Below are positions 34,178-38,573 of a stretch of 64,000 nucleotides of DNA, in pieces. The position numbers and the translations under genes are program-made. The DNA comes from Microtetraspora glauca (lineage in GTDB: Bacteria > Actinomycetota > Actinomycetes > Streptosporangiales > Streptosporangiaceae): positions 1 through 64,000 of the forward strand of contig BBYL01000024.1 of assembly GCA_001570385.1 (NCBI GenBank), in the 5' to 3' direction. The notes under the pieces are model-generated. The model ran no database searches. It was not told where the DNA came from and saw only the letters and a program-made list of their open reading frames with translations. The number at the start of each line of letters is the position of its first letter. Position 1 is the first letter of the stretch.

Positions 34178-34192
34178 AAAGAGATGGAAACC

Positions 34193-35071
34193 ATGGCATC
34201 CGCCATCGCCGGATTCGACTACCAGCGTGTCGCCGTCGCCGACGGCGTGTCCCTGAACGCGGCCGTCGCGGGCTCGGGCCCCGCGATCGTGCTGCTGCAC
34301 GGCTTCCCCCAGACCCACCTGATGTGGCGGCACGTCGCCTCCGACCTCGCGGCCGACCACACCGTGATCTGCCCCGATCTGCGTGGCTACGGCGCCAGCG
34401 ACAAACCCGCCGAGACCGACCTCACCGTCTACGCCAAGCGCACCATGGCCGCCGACGTCGTCGCGCTGGCCCGCGCGCTGGGGCACGAGCGATTCGCACT
34501 GGCCGGGCACGACCGCGGCGCCCTGGTCGCCTTCCGCGCCGGGCTCGATCACCCCGACACGATCAGCCACCTGGCCTGCCTCGACGTGCTCCCCACGGTG
34601 GACATGTGGGAGGTGATGCGCGGCGTCACCGCCGCCGTCGGCTTCCACCTCTACCTGATGGCCCAGCCTCCGGGCCTGCCCGAACAGATGATCGGCGCCG
34701 CCTCGGACGCGTTCTTCGGCCACTTCCTCGACATCTGGACCAACGACCCGCGGGCGATCCCCGCCGACGTACGCGCCGCGTACCTCGACGCCTGCCGTGA
34801 CGCGGTGCCCTCGATCGTGGCCGACTACCGCGCCTCCGCCGGCATCGACGTCGCCCACGACCAGGCCGACCGGGACGCCGGCAACCGGTTGCGGATGCCG
34901 GTCACCGTGCTCCAGCAGGACTGGGGCGCCGCGCTCGGCTACGACGCGGCGGCCCTGTGGAGCGCCTGGGCGCCGGACCTGCGGCACATCGGCGTCACCT
35001 GCGGCCACTTCATGGCCGAAGAAGCCCCCGCCGACATCGCCACGGCGCTTCGCGACCTCCTCGCCCGCTGA
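34193..35071 (+). CDS. Alpha/beta hydrolase, haloacetate dehalogenase / epoxide hydrolase type
   Basis: About 292 residues. The nucleophile is an aspartate, Asp107 in GHDRGAL, rather than serine, which places it with haloalkane/haloacetate dehalogenases and epoxide hydrolases. HGFPQTHLMW supplies the oxyanion hole and His272 in CGHFMAEEAP is the likely catalytic base. HLYLMAQPPGLPE aligns with the HW-containing halide pocket of fluoroacetate dehalogenase but lacks the Trp, so dehalogenation is uncertain. Start is ATG 34193 or 34184. Divergent from the SARP regulator. Confidence 0.85.
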   Translation: MASAIAGFDYQRVAVADGVSLNAAVAGSGPAIVLLHGFPQTHLMWRHVASDLAADHTVICPDLRGYGASDKPAETDLTVYAKRTMAADVVALARALGHERFALAGHDRGALVAFRAGLDHPDTISHLACLDVLPTVDMWEVMRGVTAAVGFHLYLMAQPPGLPEQMIGAASDAFFGHFLDIWTNDPRAIPADVRAAYLDACRDAVPSIVADYRASAGIDVAHDQADRDAGNRLRMPVTVLQQDWGAALGYDAAALWSAWAPDLRHIGVTCGHFMAEEAPADIATALRDLLAR

Positions 35072-35100
35072 ACGAGCGAGGCCGGGCGCGGAGTCGGGCG

Positions 35101-35160
35101 GCGAGGCTGTGAGGGGCGGCGCGGGGTGCGGCGAGGTTGGGAGGGGCGGCGCGGTCCGCA
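35101..35160. repeat. Imperfect 30-bp tandem duplication
   Basis: GCGAGGCTGTGAGGGGCGGC and GCGAGGTTGGGAGGGGCGGC begin two adjacent 30-bp units in the intergenic space between the hydrolase and the MFS gene. The run is strongly G-biased on the plus strand and contains no gene. Confidence 0.7.
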
Positions 35161-35214
35161 CTTTGACGCCCCCCGAAAGCCCCGAATCGGGCGGGCATGG
35201 GATGGTGGTTGCCC

Positions 35215-36462
35215 GTGACTGACCAAGCCATGGGCGTTCAGGGATTCGTACGTCGGCATATCGTGGACACCCGGCCGCTGTCGATCCCGCATTATCGCCG
35301 GTTGCTGTTCGGCCAGGGACTCTCGTTCATCGGTTTCCAGCTCACCGCGGTCGCGGTGAGCGCGCAGGTCTACGCGCTCACCCAGTCGTCGCTGTGGGTG
35401 GGACTCCTCGGGCCGGTGGCGTTGGTTCCCCTGGTCGTCTTCGGTCTGTGGGGCGGGGCGATCGCCGACGCCGTGGACCGGCGCAAGCTGCTCCTGACCT
35501 GCTCGCTCATCAGCTGGACCGCCACCCTGGTGCTGCTCGTCAACGCGGTGTTCCTTTCGAACGTATGGCTGTTGATGGCGGCCGTCGCCGTGCAGTCCAC
35601 CGGAGTCGCGGTGGCCTCGCCCACCCGCAACGCGATCATCCCGAGACTGGTTCCCAAGCACCTGGTGCCATCGGCCAACACGCTGAACTTCACCCTCGGC
35701 AGCCTCGGATCGGTCCTCGGGCCCCTGCTCGGCGGTGTCGTACTCGCCGGGGGCGGATACGGCATGGCCTACCTCATCGACGCGCTCCTTTTCAGCGCCA
35801 GCCTCTACGCGGCCGTACGGCTGCCCCGGCTCGAACCGCTCGGCGAGACCGCCGCGCCGGGTTTTCGCGCGGTGGCCGAGGGGTTGCGCTACATCCTCGG
35901 CAGTTCGATCGTGCTGATGTCGTTCGTCGTGGACATCATCGCGATGGCCTTCGCACTGCCGCGCGCCCTCTTTCCCGAACTCACCGCGACACGGTTCGGG
36001 GGCTCGGAGATGGCGTTCGGCTGGCTGTCCGCGAGCGTGGCGCTCGGCGCGGTCATCGGCGGCGTGTTCTCCGGCTGGGTGGGCCGGGTCCGCAGGCAGG
36101 GGGTGGCGCTGACATTCGTGATCGCGCTGTGGGGCCTCACGGTGGCCGCGGCCGGGCTGGCCGAGCAACTCTGGCTGGCCGTGGCGCTGCTCGCCGCCGG
36201 AGGCTTCGCGGACCTCGTCTCGGCGGTGTGGCGGCAGACGATCCTCCAGACATACGCGCCCGACGAGATGCGCGGCCGCCTCCAGGGTGTCTTCTTCGTC
36301 GTGGTGGCGGGTGGGCCGAGGCTCGGCGACATGAGAGCGGGAGCGACGGCGGCGACGTTCGGCCTGGTCCCCGCGTGGGTGGGAGGGGGCCTGCTCTGCG
36401 CCCTCGTCGTGCTCGTCGTCGGCCTGTCCGTGCCCGCCTTCCGCGCCTACCGCACGGGCTAG
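35215..36462 (+). CDS. MFS exporter (EntS/MFS_3-like)
   Basis: About 415 residues with twelve predicted helices. The loop 2-3 motif GAIADAVDRRKLL and RLVPKHLVPSANTLNF are typical of the enterobactin-exporter-like DHA group. Likely a proton-driven exporter of a siderophore or drug; substrate cannot be told. The start is unclear: ATG 35197, GTG 35215 or ATG 35230, none with a strong ribosome site; the alignment-like core begins with SIPHYRRLLFGQ. It stands alone between the hydrolase and the HTH-ABC operon. Confidence 0.82.
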   Translation: MTDQAMGVQGFVRRHIVDTRPLSIPHYRRLLFGQGLSFIGFQLTAVAVSAQVYALTQSSLWVGLLGPVALVPLVVFGLWGGAIADAVDRRKLLLTCSLISWTATLVLLVNAVFLSNVWLLMAAVAVQSTGVAVASPTRNAIIPRLVPKHLVPSANTLNFTLGSLGSVLGPLLGGVVLAGGGYGMAYLIDALLFSASLYAAVRLPRLEPLGETAAPGFRAVAEGLRYILGSSIVLMSFVVDIIAMAFALPRALFPELTATRFGGSEMAFGWLSASVALGAVIGGVFSGWVGRVRRQGVALTFVIALWGLTVAAAGLAEQLWLAVALLAAGGFADLVSAVWRQTILQTYAPDEMRGRLQGVFFVVVAGGPRLGDMRAGATAATFGLVPAWVGGGLLCALVVLVVGLSVPAFRAYRTG

Positions 36463-36524
36463 ATGCGACGGCGCTTCAGGCCGGCTGGCGGTCGTCTCCG
36501 GCTCGATCTCGCCGCCGTTTGCGC

Positions 36525-36594
36525 GTCAACCGGTGTTGACTCCGCCGCGCGGTCAACGTAGATTGACCCGGGATGCCGGTCAACATAGGTTGAC
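36525..36594 (+). promoter_or_regulatory. Triple GTCAAC-N4-GTTGAC operator overlapping two phased promoters
   Basis: Three palindromes start at 36525, 36552 and 36579, exactly 27 bp apart: GTCAACCGGTGTTGAC, GTCAACGTAGATTGAC and GTCAACATAGGTTGAC. They contain two promoter-like pairs with 17-bp spacers: TTGACT (36536) with TAGATT (36559), and TTGACC (36563) with TAGGTT (36586). The second would start transcription at about 36598, the A of the next gene's ATG, so a leaderless mRNA is expected. Binding by the small HTH protein is inferred from position. Confidence 0.75.
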
Positions 36595-36597
36595 TCC

Positions 36598-36834
36598 ATG
36601 AACGGAGAACTCGTGGCTCTGGTGACCGAAGCCGAGGGGGACGATCCGCTGCGCGCGCTACGGGCCGCCGCCGAGCTGCGCCGGCAGGTCGATCGGCTGG
36701 CCGCCGTGCAGGTACGGCGAGCCCGTGTGCAGGGGATGTCGTGGGTGCAGATAGCGCAGGCCCTGGGGGTCAGCAAACAGGCAGTGCACAAGAAGTTCGG
36801 CGGCAGGAGGCTGTTCGGGGGCGGGTGCGAGTAG
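36598..36834 (+). CDS. Small helix-turn-helix protein, probable autoregulator
   Basis: A 78-residue protein: an N-terminal helix (ALVTEAEGDDPLRALRAAAE), a second helix (RRQVDRLAAVQVRRARV), and an HTH (MSWVQIAQALGVSKQAVHKK) close to the C-terminus. Similar small one-domain proteins precede ABC exporters in actinobacteria. It sits directly behind three phased operators and 5 bases ahead of the ABC exporter, so it probably represses itself and the exporter. No ribosome site precedes the ATG, consistent with leaderless translation. Confidence 0.8.
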   Translation: MNGELVALVTEAEGDDPLRALRAAAELRRQVDRLAAVQVRRARVQGMSWVQIAQALGVSKQAVHKKFGGRRLFGGGCE

Positions 36835-36839
36835 CAGGG

Positions 36840-38573
36840 ATGACCGGGATGACCGAGCGGGGGGCCTGGCGATTACTGATCGGCCAGATCCGTCCCCACA
36901 GGCGAGCCCTGCTGCTCGGCGGGGCGCTCAGCCTCCTCGGCAGCCTCGCCGGCCTCGCGATGCCGCTGCTCGCGAAGACGGTGATCGACGCCTTCGGGCA
37001 GGGGCAGGATCTTGTGGGCCCCGTTCTCGGCCTGTCCGTGGCGGTGCTGGTGGGCGCGGTGGTGTCCGCCGGCGGACGGTTCCTGCTCGAACGCATGGGC
37101 GAGGGCATCGTGCTCGCGTCCCGGACGAACCTCGTCGACCGCATCCTGCGCCTCCGGGTGCCGGACGTGGACCGGCTCAAGCCGGGAGATCTGCTCTCCA
37201 GGGTCAGCTCCGACACCACCCTCCTGCGGGCCGTGTGCACCGACGCCCTGGCCGGCGCGGTCGGGTCGGTCTTCATGTTCCTCGGCGCCGTCGTGATGAT
37301 GGCGATCATGGACGGGGTGCTCCTCCTGGTGACGCTCGGCGTCGTGGCCCTGGTGGGCCTCGCGGGCGTCTCGATCGCGCCGAAGATCAGGCGGTCGTCC
37401 CTCCAGGCCCAGGTGGCGCTCGGCGAGATGAGCTCGACGCTCGACCGGGCGCTCCAAGCGTTCCGTACGGTCAAGGCCAGCGGGGCGGAGACCCGCGAGA
37501 TCACCGCGGTGACCGCCGCCGCCACCGAGGCGCGCGACCGGGGCGTCGCGGCCGCCGCGTGGACCTCCGCCGCGGGCATCAGCGCGTGGATGTCGGTGCA
37601 GCTCGCGTTCCTCGCGGTGCTCGGCGTGGGCGGCGCGCGGGTGGCGAACGGGTCGATGGAGATATCGGCGCTGATCGCGTTCCTGCTGTACCTGTTCTAC
37701 CTGGTCTCGCCCATCGGGCAGCTCGTCCAGAGCCTGACCCAGATGCAGAACGGCCTCGCCGCGGTGACCCGCATCCAGGAGATCGCCCAGCTGCCCGCCG
37801 AGCCCCCCGTCTCCGCGGTCACGGGCGGCGGCGCGCCGGTCGGGGTCACCTTCACCGACGTCGCCTTCCGGTACGGCGACGACCGGCCGGTGGTCCACGA
37901 CGGGGTGAGCTTCGAGGTCCCCGCGGGCGGGATGACCGCGCTCGTCGGCCCTTCGGGAGCGGGCAAGTCCACGGTGTTCGGCCTGGTCGAGCGGTTCTAC
38001 GAGCCGGACTCGGGGACCATCGCCGTCGGCGGCAGGGACATCCGCGACTGGCCGCTGGACGAGCTGCGGTCCTCGCTCGGGTACGTGGAGCAGGACGCGC
38101 CGATCCTCGCCGGGACGCTCCGCGAGAACCTCACCTTCGCCGCCCCCGGCGTGACCGACGAGGAGATCGCGCACGCGCTGGCCAGGACCCGGCTGGACGA
38201 CCTGGTCGAGCGGCTGCCCCAGGGGCTCGCGACCCCGGTCGGTCATCGTGGCGTGCTGCTCTCCGGCGGCGAACGCCAGCGGGTCGCCATCGCCAGGGCG
38301 CTGCTCCGCAGGCCGCGTCTCCTGCTCCTGGACGAGGCGACCTCCCAGCTGGACGCCGTCAACGAGCTGCGGCTGCGCGAGGTGGTCGCCGAGGTCGCGC
38401 GCGAGACCACGGTCCTGGTGATCGCGCACCGCCTGTCCACGGTCACCGGCGCCGACCGCATCATCGTCATGGAGGCGGGCAGGGTCCGTGCCTCCGGCAC
38501 GCACGAGGAGCTCGTCGAGGCGGACGACCTCTACCGGGAGCTGGCCGCCACGCAGTTCCTCGTCGTGTCCTGA
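36840..38573 (+). CDS. ABC exporter, fused membrane and ATPase domains
   Basis: About 577 residues. Residues 20-300 are the six-helix type-I exporter domain (ABC_membrane), and residues 340-570 the ATPase with Walker A GPSGAGKST, Q-loop YVEQDAP, signature LLSGGERQR, Walker B LLLLDEATSQLD and H-loop IAHRLST. As a half-transporter it should act as a homodimer. ATG 36840 or ATG 36849 are both possible; AGGGA lies 8 bases before the second. Co-transcribed with the small HTH protein. Drug, lipid or peptide export is the likely role. Confidence 0.92.
   Translation: MTGMTERGAWRLLIGQIRPHRRALLLGGALSLLGSLAGLAMPLLAKTVIDAFGQGQDLVGPVLGLSVAVLVGAVVSAGGRFLLERMGEGIVLASRTNLVDRILRLRVPDVDRLKPGDLLSRVSSDTTLLRAVCTDALAGAVGSVFMFLGAVVMMAIMDGVLLLVTLGVVALVGLAGVSIAPKIRRSSLQAQVALGEMSSTLDRALQAFRTVKASGAETREITAVTAAATEARDRGVAAAAWTSAAGISAWMSVQLAFLAVLGVGGARVANGSMEISALIAFLLYLFYLVSPIGQLVQSLTQMQNGLAAVTRIQEIAQLPAEPPVSAVTGGGAPVGVTFTDVAFRYGDDRPVVHDGVSFEVPAGGMTALVGPSGAGKSTVFGLVERFYEPDSGTIAVGGRDIRDWPLDELRSSLGYVEQDAPILAGTLRENLTFAAPGVTDEEIAHALARTRLDDLVERLPQGLATPVGHRGVLLSGGERQRVAIARALLRRPRLLLLDEATSQLDAVNELRLREVVAEVARETTVLVIAHRLSTVTGADRIIVMEAGRVRASGTHEELVEADDLYRELAATQFLVVS

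Follow-up and report, generated by a model that had tools for sequence, protein, structure and literature searches.

The 64,000-nucleotide stretch of Microtetraspora glauca DNA analyzed here (referred to as the window) carries three evenly spaced palindromes, which have the gene of an MFS permease (35197-36462) on one side and that of a 78-aa helix-turn-helix (HTH) protein on the other and which most probably form the switch of an autorepressed efflux operon, built on the kind of operator used by the repressor ClpC2. The neighbors of the HTH gene are this permease and an ABC exporter, whose ATG is found 5 nt past the HTH stop codon (Table 1) and whose two domains were recognized by Pfam as ABC_membrane (E 3.4e-38) and ABC_tran (E 1.2e-31). 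It is also worth recording that an alpha/beta hydrolase gene and the permease gene lie directly upstream of the array on the same strand (34184-36462), that the permease is assigned to MFS_3, its match to the EntS model being below the cut-off of that model, and that alpha/beta hydrolases are found behind such arrays elsewhere too (L165, L141, L041).

Table 1. Features of the array and of the genes behind it, in window coordinates
Feature	Position	Strand	Description
Operator 1, distal	36525..36540	.	GTCAACCGGTGTTGAC, GTCAAC-CGGT-GTTGAC; its TTGAC is the predicted -35 of P1
Operator 2, middle	36552..36567	.	GTCAACGTAGATTGAC, GTCAAC-GTAG-ATTGAC; holds the predicted -10 of P1 and -35 of P2
Operator 3, proximal	36579..36594	.	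GTCAACATAGGTTGAC, GTCAAC-ATAG-GTTGAC; holds the predicted -10 of P2; 3 nt separate its end from the ATG
Putative promoter P1	36536..36564	+	TTGACT-17-TAGATT, from operator 1 into operator 2; 9/12 matches; predicted start ~36571, 27-nt leader
Putative promoter P2	36563..36591	+	TTGACC-17-TAGGTT, reaching from operator 2 to operator 3; transcription predicted to begin on or beside the ATG
HTH protein	36598..36834	+	78 aa; stand-alone relative of the ClpC2 N-terminal domain
ABC exporter	36840..38573	+	Fusion of permease and ATPase; 577 aa counted from ATG 36840

A sequence-only reading of this DNA had described three operators at an exact 27-bp spacing, and these are indeed present as 16-bp palindromes at a step of exactly 27 bp, with the correction that the middle one is imperfect. 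Operators 1 and 3 are perfect, while operator 2 has one mismatch, ATTGAC in place of GTTGAC, that provides a better -10 element (TAGATT vs TAGGTT) paid for in symmetry. The exact operator motif is absent from the rest of the genome (9.27 Mb in 62 contigs). When up to 2 mismatches are allowed, the window contains 3 matches against 1.69 expected and 20 of 100 shuffles reach that number, and single sites of this quality are therefore unremarkable, which is the one point in favor of the array being a set of chance repeats. At up to 1 mismatch, 400 copies of the window simulated with a first-order Markov model contained a mean of only 0.07 sites, and in none of them were two or three sites spaced by steps of 26-30 bp; together with the conservation of the array in relatives, this led us to reject chance repeats, to which we assign a negligible probability. 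The same reading had also held that promoter and operator were duplicated as one unit, a view that our data do not bear out, as the two 11-bp stretches between operators are identical at 4 of 11 places and hence lend no support to the duplication of a 27-bp unit.

The operators had furthermore been described as superposed on two promoter signals with 17-bp spacers, and both signals can be read in the sequence. P1 was the sole sigma-70-like match returned by the promoter scanner in the interval 36001-38000, where 0.1 would be expected; P2 was not picked up by the standard scanner in the same interval, and is present as written in the sequence, its -10 ending 6 nt before the ATG at 36598. No terminator-like site was found by the scanner between the MFS gene and the array, and read-through from the MFS gene is thus possible.

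Comparison with relatives agrees with such superposition and supports it. We assembled 117 loci (6 from the genome itself, 2 copies of the window, 29 from 60 relatives, and 80 named loci), two of which were excluded as copies (L007, L008) and one of which had no match (L006), so that an HTH match was placed in 114. The form usual upstream of relatives of the HTH gene in Actinomycetota has two copies: 75 of the 114 HTH matches (73 distinct arrays) have two or more copies in front of them, the last two being separated by a step of 27-30 bp, and no such pair was found in the other 39. The step in the 73 arrays is 27 bp in 28 of them, 28 bp in 31, 29 bp in 13, and 30 bp in one. A TA in the center of the copy is found in 72 of 73 proximal vs 6 of 73 distal copies (Fisher p 6e-33, to be taken as a guide only because the loci are related), and three of these six distal copies are in fact the middle copies of triples. 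The looser pattern NANNNT at matching phase, used as a control, is found in 39 of 73 distal copies, which makes TA, and not NANNNT, the telling feature. The half-site ATTGAC, as in operator 2, is found in 14 proximal and 6 distal copies out of 73 each. Because a -35/-10 spacer of 17 or 18 is present in 71 of 73 arrays, the 27-29-bp step is best read, on this comparison, as following promoter geometry. In 68 of 73 arrays, 6-7 nt separate the end of the -10 from the start codon, where the start codon was chosen as the first one after the last copy, a choice that favors short distances. Such placement accords with the earlier suggestion that the second promoter would begin transcription on the start codon, and, judged by position only, P2 would be leaderless and the ordinary promoter of this HTH family.

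The genes that follow the HTH gene in the 75 two-copy loci were typed by tblastn using one example of each kind. Clp_N genes account for 38 and ABC exporter genes for 15 of these loci, 5 of the exporters being of the window type and 10 of a second type with 43% identity to it; 7 loci have a beta-lactamase-fold gene and one has an alpha/beta hydrolase gene. The remaining 14 matched no example; among them, Pfam identified L027 as Clp_N and L037 as polyketide-cyclase-like. These partner kinds suggest a response to toxic compounds. In a tree of the HTH proteins (62 rows, 78 columns, with many forks open), those with Clp_N partners are on one side of a branch with support 100/99; on the other side, exporter and beta-lactamase partners need three changes each, the beta-lactamase label of L011 having been given by eye as its locus is cut and provided no tblastn match. 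As a separate observation, L002 and L035, which represent the HTH-Clp_N paralogue of the genus, have GTAAAC rather than GTCAAC as left half-sites.

Three copies in the same sense are rarer. Besides the window, they were seen in Microtetraspora niveoalba (L009/L038), whose sites, including operator 1, are identical to those of the window, and in Acrocarpospora (L010/L039), where the steps are 28 and 27 and the center of operator 1 is CCGG. In G028 (L011) the outer two copies are kept and the middle one has no left half-site, TAAATT and TTGAC being retained. The HTH proteins of these loci (L001, L009, L010, L011) form one clade with support 98/91. A search of the DNA for triples returned 2 of 394 genomes of the class, that of the window being one and L118 the other; the triple in L118 is back to back, with TA in the outer copies and none in the middle one. 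In L107, a third copy is a poor match at a different step. It appears, therefore, from these searches that the same-sense tandem triple is seen only in one small Streptosporangiaceae clade. The middle copies of all three triples carry the -10 TA, which only 3 of 70 other distal copies do, and this supports P1 as a real promoter unit.

Several variants of the layout were met along the way. The 11-bp spacers of L118 (1501-1570) are mirror images (CCGAGGGCAGG/CCTGCCCTCGG), and only the rightward HTH gene is recognized there. The array of M. fusca (L012/L040) is down to one palindrome with a 3-bp center, and the ATG that matches the start in the window is not in frame with the HTH. Palindrome pairs whose half-sites are GTCAAG/CTTGAC were found in L128, L140, L142, L212, L250, and L263, where they precede either small genes judged XRE-like by eye or divergent genes of the HTH family; these pairs might possibly be specificity variants of the same layout.

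Although the loci above were collected through the HTH gene, the link between array and HTH family also emerges when only DNA is searched. Such a pattern search found the pair in 62 of 197 genomes of the class, compared to 0 of 197 for the reversed control pattern, and an HTH family gene directly follows 52 of the 64 two-copy arrays found in this manner (the two of the window being left out). Among the other 12, five have GTCAAG half-sites (L128, L140, L142-L144), three precede the exporter (L191, L192, L195), one a Clp_N gene (L190), and two alpha/beta hydrolases (L165, L141), while L189 points at a contig end. The small HTH protein, already put forward in the sequence-only reading, is on these grounds the likely reader of the array.

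Linkage to the exporter is seen in one genus (g4), taken as Nonomuraea, where the pair was found in 38 of 39 genomes, a number that reflects one genus and not 38 independent events. Among 49 array places in this genus, 38 are before the exporter orthologue, 5 before a family HTH gene, and 6 before neither. In all 38 array-bearing genomes the array stands directly before the exporter orthologue with no family HTH gene between; in the 24 such loci listed, the exporter match is 62-70% identical and starts 32-138 nt past the array, which leaves no room for one. The 18 named Nonomuraea HTH genes (L042, L044-L047, L049-L061), which belong to the 39 loci with no such pair, are without an array of their own. 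Two genomes of a further genus also have the array before the exporter (L192, L195). Among the 22 exporter loci from the 60 relatives, 8 had two copies or more within 700 nt when as many as 2 mismatches were accepted (L225, L226, L229-L232, L239, L240, with varied steps in L231, L239, and L240), and L228 had one; no copy was found within that distance in the other 13 (L227, L233-L238, L241-L246), many of which are more distant homologues. On this gene order, the exporter is a likely target of the array. An odd N3 palindrome is present before the HTH gene in L227.

No Pfam or NCBIfam family was matched above cut-off by the HTH protein itself, the best Pfam match being HTH_23 with 22.1 bits vs a curated cut-off of 24.6, and Sigma70_r4_2 and others also being below theirs; a Clp_N domain is absent according to the Pfam scan. 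The AlphaFold2 model (pLDDT 84.4) has helices 49-56 and 60-68 forming the HTH, with the recognition helix at approximately residues 60-68 and the motif SKQAVHKKF at 59-67. Foldseek returned no significant match for this model (best E 0.97, generic HTH rows), VIA-align likewise returned generic HTH rows (DeoR and Fis on top, Z 5.4), and 8ada and 9sdc were absent among the best 50 fold-comparison matches listed. Profile comparison was more informative, with RelI (9sdc, E 2.7e-6) as the closest solved structure and ClpC2 residues 4-72 (8ada, E 0.0013) as the next match of interest; the CAP repeat entry 8vd6, with weak and repeated matches, scores between the two. When the HTH family (46 rows) was aligned by hhalign to 12 ClpC2 N-termini, which are the best 12 of 41 ClpC2-type places in 148 genomes, homology was evident (probability 96.9, E 1.8e-10) and the alignment extended through the recognition helix, which reads [ST][KR]QAAQKRF in ClpC2. 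The operators of these two groups differ by one base pair at their center, which is N5 in 12 of 12 ClpC2 loci and N4 in none, as opposed to N4 in 79 and N5 in 1 of 107 loci of stand-alone QAVHK-type HTH genes. In the genome of the window, a 134-aa ORF with the helix SKQAARKRF (L003, G000:C45 near 2219) is preceded by GACAAC-N5-GTTGTC, with a ClpC2-like 5-bp center and changed half-sites.

Based on the anatomy of the array, its conservation, its linkage to the HTH family and the exporter, and the homology between the HTH protein and the N-terminal domain of ClpC2, we infer that the 78-aa protein would bind the palindromes as a dimer. Promoter letters are part of every palindrome, its right half (TTGAC) serving as a predicted -35 and its center and right half as a predicted -10 (TANNNT); dimers lying over the -35 and -10 of both promoters would for this reason shut out RNA polymerase, and the HTH gene and the exporter would be repressed together. 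P2, with operators 2 and 3, would be the leaderless, usual form of the family, and P1, with operators 1 and 2, an extra upstream promoter-operator step found in a single Streptosporangiaceae clade. Release of the HTH protein by a signal would then turn on its own gene and the ABC exporter, which might remove drug-like compounds.

Three evenly stepped sites could also suggest a cooperative or graded switch, where neighboring dimers touch and the response becomes steeper or staged, and ClpC2 is reported to be able to occupy two consecutive sites at once (PMC10030653). The step, however, may be 27, 28, or 29 bp and follows the promoter spacer (with 28 and 27 combined in Acrocarpospora), and 27 bp corresponds to about 2.6 turns, not a whole number, which would place neighbors on nearly opposite faces of the DNA. 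As the spacing follows promoter geometry, cooperativity is not supported, and we consider it unlikely, although it retains some weight. Were only the promoters of importance, with P1 providing extra basal output and operator 1 being a by-product of its -35, one would understand why the middle copy in G028 lost its left half-site and kept TAAATT and TTGAC; the left half-site of operator 1, however, is of no use to a promoter and is nonetheless intact in the window, M. niveoalba, Acrocarpospora, and L011, which makes this explanation improbable.

Another protein might read the array, for example the paralogue L002, an HTH gene followed by a Clp_N protein gene, with the adjacent HTH protein modifying or competing with its binding. 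A second array does exist in the same genome before this paralogue, and G095 and G190, two genomes from another genus, have an exporter array with no family HTH gene beside it and a second array that precedes an HTH gene of the family (L192-L195). The operators of the paralogue are, however, GTAAAC-N4-GTTGAC and not GTCAAC, the HTH protein of the window is separated in the tree from those with Clp_N partners (100/99), and an HTH gene is found right behind the array in the triple loci L001, L009, and L010, as well as in L118. Reading by another protein is therefore, in our opinion, decidedly improbable, and repression by the adjacent HTH protein remains the explanation that we favor.

In the published work on ClpC2 (PMC10030653), DNA contact is assigned to residues R185 and R189 of the C-terminal domain, a domain that the 78-aa protein lacks, which counts against the explanation favored here; the R185A/R189A protein binds less well and the matching M. 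smegmatis mutant shows 2.0-fold derepression; the dimer mutant R57A shows 4.6-fold derepression, and high affinity is tied to the dimer. The crystallized chain in 8ada (ClpC2 4-72) ends at residue 72, in the turn before the recognition helix, and the second published fragment spans residues 94-252 (PMC10030653), so that this helix, which begins at about residue 73, lies in the gap between the two fragments. As these half-sites are shared by the promoter of a protein that consists of the HTH only, the HTH may well be the part that reads the DNA in both proteins.

A wider proposal, which we regard as evenly balanced between right and wrong, would be that an antibiotic-response regulon extends across the phylum under the control of one lineage of small HTH proteins, akin to the N-terminal domain of ClpC2, and uses a single operator grammar. 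Clp_N drug sponges, beta-lactamase-fold enzymes, alpha/beta hydrolases, and the ABC exporter of the window would be its targets. Its parallel branches would be separated by one central base pair (4 vs 5), the N-terminal HTH and not the C-terminal arginines would read the DNA in ClpC2, and the triple in the window would be a tandem two-promoter elaboration. If true, the DNA-reading role in ClpC2 would shift from the C-terminal domain to the N-terminal HTH, which is simply testable, and related repressors would share a one-base-pair specificity code. An uncharacterized exporter, with the array in 38/39 genomes of one genus, would moreover be tied to a ClpC2-type operator, that of a repressor whose response to a ClpC1-directed antibiotic is known. 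A general signal shared by ClpC1 drugs is not assured, as ecumicin and ilamycin do not trigger ClpC2 according to the available text of PMC12913811, from which the word transporter is absent. Beyond the ClpC2 and RelI papers, titles and beginnings of abstracts among the open-access matches listed (the top 9-20 of each search) revealed no work on the 4-bp-center operator, on the HTH-exporter pair, or on the Nonomuraea array.

Autorepressed efflux operons of the TetR type, such as those of QacR and CgmR, have a small repressor acting on the promoter of itself and/or of the exporter. The arrangement in the window is similar, with a small putative repressor that would sit on the promoter of itself and of the exporter, but its HTH protein is unrelated to these repressors and has no recognizable ligand-binding domain. 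RelI, the antitoxin of RelS-RelI (9sdc, PMC13284704), is by profile a related small HTH protein, whose similarity to ClpC2 in the HTH region was already noted in that report; no inverted repeats are described there upstream of relSI, and the HTH gene studied here adjoins an MFS permease and an ABC exporter and no RelS toxin gene. The two-gene HTH and Clp_N units (L002, and the 38 of 75 two-copy loci) share the HTH family, the kind of operator pair, and the promoter, but their partner is a Clp_N protein and their HTH proteins are on the other side of the family tree. The closest parallel is the mycobacterial autorepressor ClpC2, which EMSA and reporter assays are reported to show binding and repressing its own promoter, thought to be leaderless, through operators that have these half-sites, often in two copies, and that cover its -35 and -10 (the operator being given as CGTCAAC-n5-GTTGACG in PMC10030653). 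Its N-terminal HTH/dimer domain is homologous to the HTH protein of the window. ClpC2 differs, however, in its C-terminal Clp_N domain, which binds cyclomarin and is missing from the HTH protein of the window, and in the 5-bp center of its operator compared to 4 bp here, while the array in the window has three copies and an exporter as its output.
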